Shown here in pieces: positions 61,895 through 63,718 of a DNA stretch of 64,000 nt. Under the pieces are notes generated by a model, which saw nothing but the letters and a program-made list of their open reading frames with translations, was not told where the DNA came from and searched no databases. A program made the position numbers and the translations under genes. The DNA is from Amphirosellinia nigrospora (Eukaryota > Ascomycota > Sordariomycetes > Xylariales > Xylariaceae). Numbering within the stretch: position 1 is the stretch's first letter; every line of letters starts with the position of its first letter. The stretch is taken from assembly GCA_004123355.1 (NCBI GenBank), contig SCHM01000002.1, positions 9,087,569 through 9,151,568 of the forward strand, given 5' to 3'.

Positions 61895-63718
61895 ATGTCG
61901 ACCAAGGCTCATCTTAACGTCGTCGTCATTGGCCGTAAGTTGCATTTTCTGCGTCGTCGCATCCGAATGATATCATCTAACCGTGACACGCGCAGACGTC
62001 GACAGTGGCAAGTCCACTACCACCGGCCATCTGATCTACCAGTGCGGTGGTATCGACAAGCGAACCATCGAGAAGTTTGAGAAGGTTAGTGTCAATTTTC
62101 TACCTATTGCATCGCATCCTCGTTTTTTGTGTTTTTTCCTCCGGAGACTTCAATTTTCTCATATGTGTGCCCCTCCCGATTGCAACCAATCTGTAACCCC
62201 CACCGAGGGTAGAATTTTATCTACCCCGCCTTATTTTGGACCCGGGGGCCAATCCGCAGCACCTTCACGATGTATCTGAAACAATCATTCTATCGTTGCC
62301 TGGGCCTGGGCGCTATTTCTCAGTATTTACGCTTCGCCAATTCAAGAGTGCGATAAGCACTCGCAATCTACAGGTCGTCGATGGGATTAGGTTGCTAACA
62401 TCTCCAACAGGAAGCTGCTGAACTCGCAAGGGTTCTTTCAAGTATGCCTGGGTTTTGGACAAGCTAAAGGCGAGCGTGAGCGTGGTATCACCATCGATAT
62501 TGCTCTCTGGAAGTTCGAGACCCCTAAGTACTACGTCACTGTCATCGGTATGGTCGTCTCGGTGCTGGGCGCAACTGAACTGGACATGTCGTACTAACAT
62601 ACATATGCCAGACGCTCCCGGTCATCGTGATTTCCATCAAGAACATGATTACTGGTACCTCGCAAGCCGACTGCGCCATTCTCATCATTGCTGCCGGTAC
62701 TGGTGAGTTCGAGGCTGGTATCTCCAAGGATGGCCAGACTCGTGAGCACGCTCTGCTCGCTTTCACCCTGGGTGTCAAGCAGCTCATCGTCGCTATCAAC
62801 AAGATGGACACCGCCCAATGGGCTGAGGCTCGTTTCAACGAGATTGTCAAGGAAACCTCCTCTTTCATCAAGAAGGTCGGTTTCAACCCCAAGCACGTCG
62901 CTTTCGTCCCCATCTCTGGTTTCAACGGCGACAACATGCTTGAGGTCACCAAGAACGCTTCCTGGTACAAGGGCTGGGAGAAGGAATCCCCCAAAGGTGC
63001 CAAGGTCTCTGGCAAGACCCTCCTCGATGCCATTGACGCCATTGAGGAGCCCAAGCGTGCCAACGACAAGCCCCTCCGTCTTCCCCTCCAGGATGTCTAC
63101 AAGATCGGTGGTATTGGCACGGTTCCCGTCGGCCGTATCGAGACCGGTGAGCTTAAGCCCGGTATGGTCGTTACCTTCGCTCCTGCCATGGTCACTACCG
63201 AAGTCAAGTCGGTTGAAATGCACCACCAACAGCTCGAGAAGGGTAACCCCGGTGACAACGTTGGTTTCAATGTGAAGAACGTCTCCGTCAAGGATATTCG
63301 CCGTGGAAACGTCGCCGGTGATAGCAAGAACGACCCTCCCTTCGGTGCCGAGTCCTTCAACGCTCAGGTCATCGTCCTCAACCACCCTGGTCAAGTCGGT
63401 GCTGGTTACGCCCCGGTTCTTGACTGCCACACTGCGCACATTGCTTGCAAGTTCTCTGAGCTCCTCGAGAAGATCGACCGCCGTACTGGTAAGAGTGTCG
63501 AGGCGAACCCCAAGTTCGTCAAGTCTGGTGACGCTGCCATCGTTAAGATGATTCCCTCCAAGCCCATGTGCGTGGAGGCTTTCACTGACTACCCTCCTCT
63601 GGGACGTTTCGCTGTCCGTGACATGCGTCAAACCGTTGCTGTTGGTGTTATCAAGTCCGTCGAGAAGGACACCAAGGTCAAGGGCAAGGAGACCAAGTCT
63701 GCTGCCAAGAAGAAGTAA
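61895..63718 (+). CDS. TEF1: Translation elongation factor eEF1A
   Basis: eEF1A delivers aminoacyl-tRNA to the ribosome as a GTPase. Exons: 61895-61934, 61996-62084, 62411-62547 and 62612-63718. Start [20 protein letters not shown], with the P-loop GHVDSGKST split by intron 1. Then [20 protein letters not shown], switch I region [31 protein letters not shown] and [10 protein letters not shown], domain 2 [20 protein letters not shown] and domain 3 [20 protein letters not shown], ending AAKKK. Exons 3 and 4 contain three indels: a missing G at ~62426, a missing C at ~62471 and an extra C at ~62634. Correcting them restores the conserved eEF1A sequence and a 457-residue protein. Intron 2 (62085-62410) is the long, variable intron often used to identify fungal species. 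Confidence 0.97.

Follow-up and report, generated by a model that had tools for sequence, protein, structure and literature searches.

Three frame breaks in the single eEF1A gene found in an Amphirosellinia nigrospora assembly: probable consensus errors

The eEF1A gene of A. nigrospora changes reading frame three times as assembled, and these changes are almost certainly uncorrected single-base consensus errors of a long-read assembly that received too little polishing, the fungus itself carrying an intact, single eEF1A. The gene lies in a stretch of 64,000 nucleotides (the window), positions 9087569-9151568 of contig C4 within an assembly of 48,114,038 bases in 11 contigs. An earlier, sequence-only reading of the window offered the consensus-error explanation, which is supported by the absence of any other eEF1A from this assembly, by frame breaks in other conserved families and by base losses in tRNA genes. 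The breaks are read as an artefact of data quality, of a type already documented, and as no new biology.

The eEF1A gene and its three changes of frame

The locus at 61895-63718 was identified as eEF1A from the long ORF of its last exon (62579-63718), which aligned to residues 99-454 of yeast eEF1A with an E-value of 1.5e-194. In a protein search with this ORF all 12 chains listed at E 1e-100 were elongation factor 1-alpha, and judged by similarity the locus is closest to eEF1A, rather than to eRF3 or Hbs1. The PF00009, PF03144, PF03143 and PF22594 profiles scored above their cut-offs in ORF 62579-63715. The P-loop piece is held by exon 2, and domains 2 and 3 and the remainder of the GTPase domain by exon 4. 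The exons are as follows:

61895..61934, + strand: exon 1, coding for 13 residues, read from the sequence, with the donor GTAAGT directly 3'
61996..62084, + strand: exon 2, P-loop VDSGKS, frame 0 (yeast eEF1A residues 12-46, E 5.1e-13)
62411..62547, + strand: exon 3, frames 2, 1 and 0 in succession (piecewise frame reading)
62612..63718, + strand: exon 4, stop included, frame 1 and then frame 2 (Pfam, yeast alignment)

All introns are of the GT..AG type. The exon lengths total 1373 nt, a multiple of three minus 1, so that, net, one base is missing from a full frame. The frame changes were located at these positions:

62426..62427, + strand: break 1, step -1, between EAAEL and a piece of 15 residues
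62473..62474, + strand: break 2, step -1, between LDKLKA and a piece of 24 residues
62635..62635, + strand: break 3, step +1, between APGHRDF and a piece of 16 residues

Exon 3 opens with EAAEL in frame 2 (62411-62425), continues in frame 1 (62428-62472, corresponding to eEF1A residues 51-66) and ends in frame 0 (62475-62547); ORF 62391-62594 aligned to yeast residues 51-91, its second part alone being well conserved. The opening APGHRDF of exon 4 (62614-62634, frame 1) corresponds approximately to residues 83-99 and is weak when taken alone (5.3 bits). Together the pieces align to successive stretches of eEF1A, from residue 51 through 454. All three changes fall within about 210 nt, after which exon 4 runs on for 360 codons without another. 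As assembled, the gene therefore lacks a single uninterrupted spliced frame. The sequence-only reading had called two missing bases and one extra base in this gene, and its steps (-1, -1, +1) proved right in both coordinates and sign.

The assembly was also searched, as that reading had proposed, for a second intact eEF1A. The 360 intact residues gave 5 matches in all, the window locus at 100%, and no second eEF1A was found in the 48.1 Mb, the next matches being partial, with 38% and 35% identity, or shorter. Loss of eEF1A would be lethal, so the assembly must either be in error at this locus or lack the working copy. The latter would make the window locus a true pseudogene, with a functional eEF1A elsewhere in the genome. 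Three disabling changes inside one gene would fit such a history, and the assembly may be incomplete, so that a copy could have been missed. Against this, the assembly holds no second copy, and a 379-amino-acid frame is still open at the locus. Codon bias is also intact: codon log-odds were 0.26-0.40 for the exon 3 pieces and 0.315 for the main part of exon 4, compared with a training-ORF mean of 0.140, the 7-codon piece opening exon 4 scoring 0.15. This codon bias and the 360 open codons resemble those of an intact, highly expressed gene. Moreover, the same account would be needed for each of the many other conserved families with breaks described below, and for the shortened tRNA copies. A pseudogene is therefore very unlikely.

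Breaks in other conserved genes and in tRNA genes

Six Pfam families, whose members are conserved and for the most part essential, were searched across the assembly, and every pair of neighbouring matches was tested for a change of frame (118 matches, 54 gene loci, 52,290 matched nt). Thirty frame-changing junctions without room for an intron were found, in 18 of the 54 loci, distributed as follows:

PF00118 (chaperonin): 5 of 10 loci with a break
PF00012 (Hsp70): 4 of 10 loci
PF00133 (class I synthetase): 1 of 7 loci, a weak case spanning 140 unmatched nt
PF00227 (proteasome): 2 of 14 loci
PF00022 (actin): 4 of 10 loci
PF00562 (RNA polymerase beta): 2 of 3 loci

Single-base indels dominate: at 16 of the 30 junctions the DNA was exactly one nt shorter than the profile (excess -1 nt), and at 24 the excess lay between -4 and +4 nt; the frame step was -1 at 23 junctions and +1 at 7. 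Six further junctions, classed as "other", fell outside the range of the test and were left out of the counts both ways. PF00009, counted separately, gave two more junctions, both -1; they lie in a GTPase gene on C10, the one locus affected among 18. Breaks of this kind thus occur on C1, C4, C5, C6, C7 and C8 in the six families, and on C10. Members were counted by family, and divergent paralogues may be among the loci. The method gives a lower bound, as it detects none of the three eEF1A breaks. In a control with bacterial Hsp70, none of 7 junctions changed frame in the same test (10 genomes, 43 matches, 36 loci, 42.4 kb); this control used 10 of the 80 loci found, from genomes that are not intron-bearing. 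The same form of break in other conserved families indicates that the eEF1A breaks are not local.

The sequence-only reading had listed single-base breaks in further genes of the window; part of this list was checked, and the breaks found support in two genes:

44222..44499, - strand: ATG3 active-site domain, in two PF03987 pieces (profile 82-139 and 138-163) that lie in different frames and overlap by 13 nt
42560..43266, + strand: AzgA-like permease, located by the end of the match and a shift in coding score

The AzgA break had been placed at about 42859; the permease match breaks off near 42856 with its frame still open, the coding score shifts to another frame, and Pfam gave no separate permease match in that second frame. 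For GDT1 one of the proposed sites is suggestive, the match to the second domain stopping at position 62 of a 75-position profile, and the piece expected after the cut had no Pfam match. Suggestive as well is the thioredoxin-like gene (about 52862), in which a Redoxin match, under its curated cut-off, stops near 52861. The MFS break at about 51543 was visible in the coding score alone, MFS_1 remaining under cut-off (E 0.013). The eL37 gene is real, its break being weak and falling in the variable last residues. No relative of mL45 was found in the PDB at E 0.01. The codon-bias frame scan served for ORF choice and hints only; reverse-strand shadow ORFs score high in it, and no error rate was derived from it.

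Bases are missing from tRNA genes too. With the RF00005 profile, 63 scored matches were obtained from 1644 first-look candidates, and 58 of the 63 were compared. Nine groups of at least two identical copies comprised 27 copies, and nine more copies were within two edits of a group. Five of these 36 were shorter than their otherwise identical sisters, four by one base and one by two; four had the length of their group and differed from it in one or two letters; none of the 36 was longer. The sample is biased to well-scoring copies, and the count is likely a lower bound. ARAGORN called all four intact reference copies, the sisters of the shortened ones, but just one of the five shortened copies. 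Three of the four single-base losses lie within runs of 3 or 4. Two single copies (L140 and L158) differ from each other by one base. The breaks are hence genome-wide and extend to untranslated genes, whose losses recoding in translation cannot explain.

Character of the breaks and alternative explanations

From the sequence we strongly infer that sequencing error caused the eEF1A breaks, and reads or cDNA would be expected to differ from the given bases at these sites. The consensus would have lost two bases and gained one in this gene. The assembly would then be contiguous but under-polished, with errors that are mostly single-base deletions, and the platform was probably a noisy long-read one, used at low depth or without short-read polishing. 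Eleven contigs for 48.1 Mb would fit a long-read assembly.

Homopolymer bias is the usual mark of nanopore error. The longest run near a break averaged 3.17, while a matched coding-sequence control gave 2.81 (P 0.04, for 23 of the 30 junctions), and runs of at least 4 were seen at 6 of the 23 junctions, with 4.1 expected. A first control for run length (P 0.004) was unmatched and was replaced by the matched one. The eEF1A breaks themselves adjoin runs of two or less. The homopolymer bias at the breaks is weak, a point against consensus error; it also fits a low-depth long-read consensus. The earlier claim that missing bases often lie beside a short run finds weak support here. The run spectrum of 264 kb was discarded as proof, being confounded by codon use and composition. 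G/C runs of at least 6 numbered 36 there, compared with 76 in shuffles, and A/T runs of at least 10 numbered 35, compared with 10, a spectrum compatible with compressed G/C runs.

The errors are unevenly distributed, a further point against. The densest of the tested loci, an RPB2-like gene (C6:2233230-2234286), holds 5 of the 30 junctions in about 1.06 kb; at the mean rate this has P 4e-4, uncorrected for its selection from the 54 loci. For eEF1A, three breaks over 1374 coding nt have P 0.046 at the mean rate, and the first and third of them are also close together.

Some breaks might be introns that went unnoticed, or artefacts of annotation in the first reading. This holds for some split genes and for many junctions marked "intron?". 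TYW3 (1.9-2.8 kb of the window) is one such gene: its pieces lie in different frames, and the 92 nt separating them fit an intron. However, neither the eEF1A pieces nor the 30 counted junctions leave room for one, and as an account of the breaks it is extremely unlikely. It is just as improbable that the indels are real in the strain and faithfully assembled, for example in a hypermutated or repair-deficient strain, or in one with mixed nuclei, the intact nuclei covering the function. At 6683-8760 of the window, on the minus strand, two ankyrin-repeat ORFs overlap in different frames, through either an intron or an error.

Programmed frameshifting occurs genome-wide in Euplotes, and a fungus decoding real indels in this way would show frequent frame changes in essential genes, as observed here. 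The shifts run in both directions, however, and the junctions share no 4-, 5- or 6-mer beyond chance (the top 6-mer occurred at 3 of 23 junctions, the chance mean of the top being 2.9). Untranslated tRNA genes lose bases too. A shared motif, a single direction and a restriction to translated genes are thus all lacking, which makes this explanation next to inconceivable.

RIP was likewise rejected as a cause; it turns C into T and does not create indels, and at TA/AT 0.68 the eEF1A stretch does not resemble RIP-mutated DNA in composition.

Comparable assemblies and consequences for the use of this one

Consensus errors of this kind have precedents among fungal assemblies. The excerpted text of PMC7500977 describes nanopore-only assemblies of Drechmeria coniospora in which the share of full-length genes among 305 conserved ones was less than one-sixth prior to polishing and at most 82% after long-read polishing. 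According to the same excerpt, similarity-based completeness scores overlook small indels, and the errors were mainly in homopolymers, with insertions exceeding deletions after polishing (PMC7500977). The present assembly is similarly contiguous with frameshifted conserved genes; unlike those assemblies, it shows a prevalence of deletions and a weak homopolymer bias. For low-coverage nanopore assemblies of filamentous ascomycetes, the excerpted text of PMC9453082 describes indels in conserved genes, in and outside homopolymers, which become fewer with depth. The likeness lies in indels of conserved genes, in and off homopolymers; the published cases differ in concerning three genes in named species (PMC9453082).

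Without polishing, this assembly is no safe basis for gene models, claims of gene loss, counts of pseudogenes or dN/dS values, and its missing or split genes should not be taken as biology. A similarity-based completeness score can miss such errors; the comparison of identical tRNAs offers a simple, reference-free check. TEF1 is a common fungal barcode, and barcodes extracted from this assembly would contain false indels. Three primer sites were located with primer letters from the excerpted text of PMC10971471:

62066-62085: EF1-728F
62425-62444: EF1-986R, with eEF1A break 1 at the edge of the site
62614-62637: EF1-983F, with eEF1A break 3 inside the site

Elsewhere in the window, no direct or inverted repeats of at least 60 nt were found in 14000-28500. 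Within this region, 18001-26000 is AT-rich (GC 0.17-0.25) and has RIP-like indices (TA/AT 1.30-1.41; (CA+TG)/(AC+GT) 0.37-0.60), and this block probably consists of mutated repeats.
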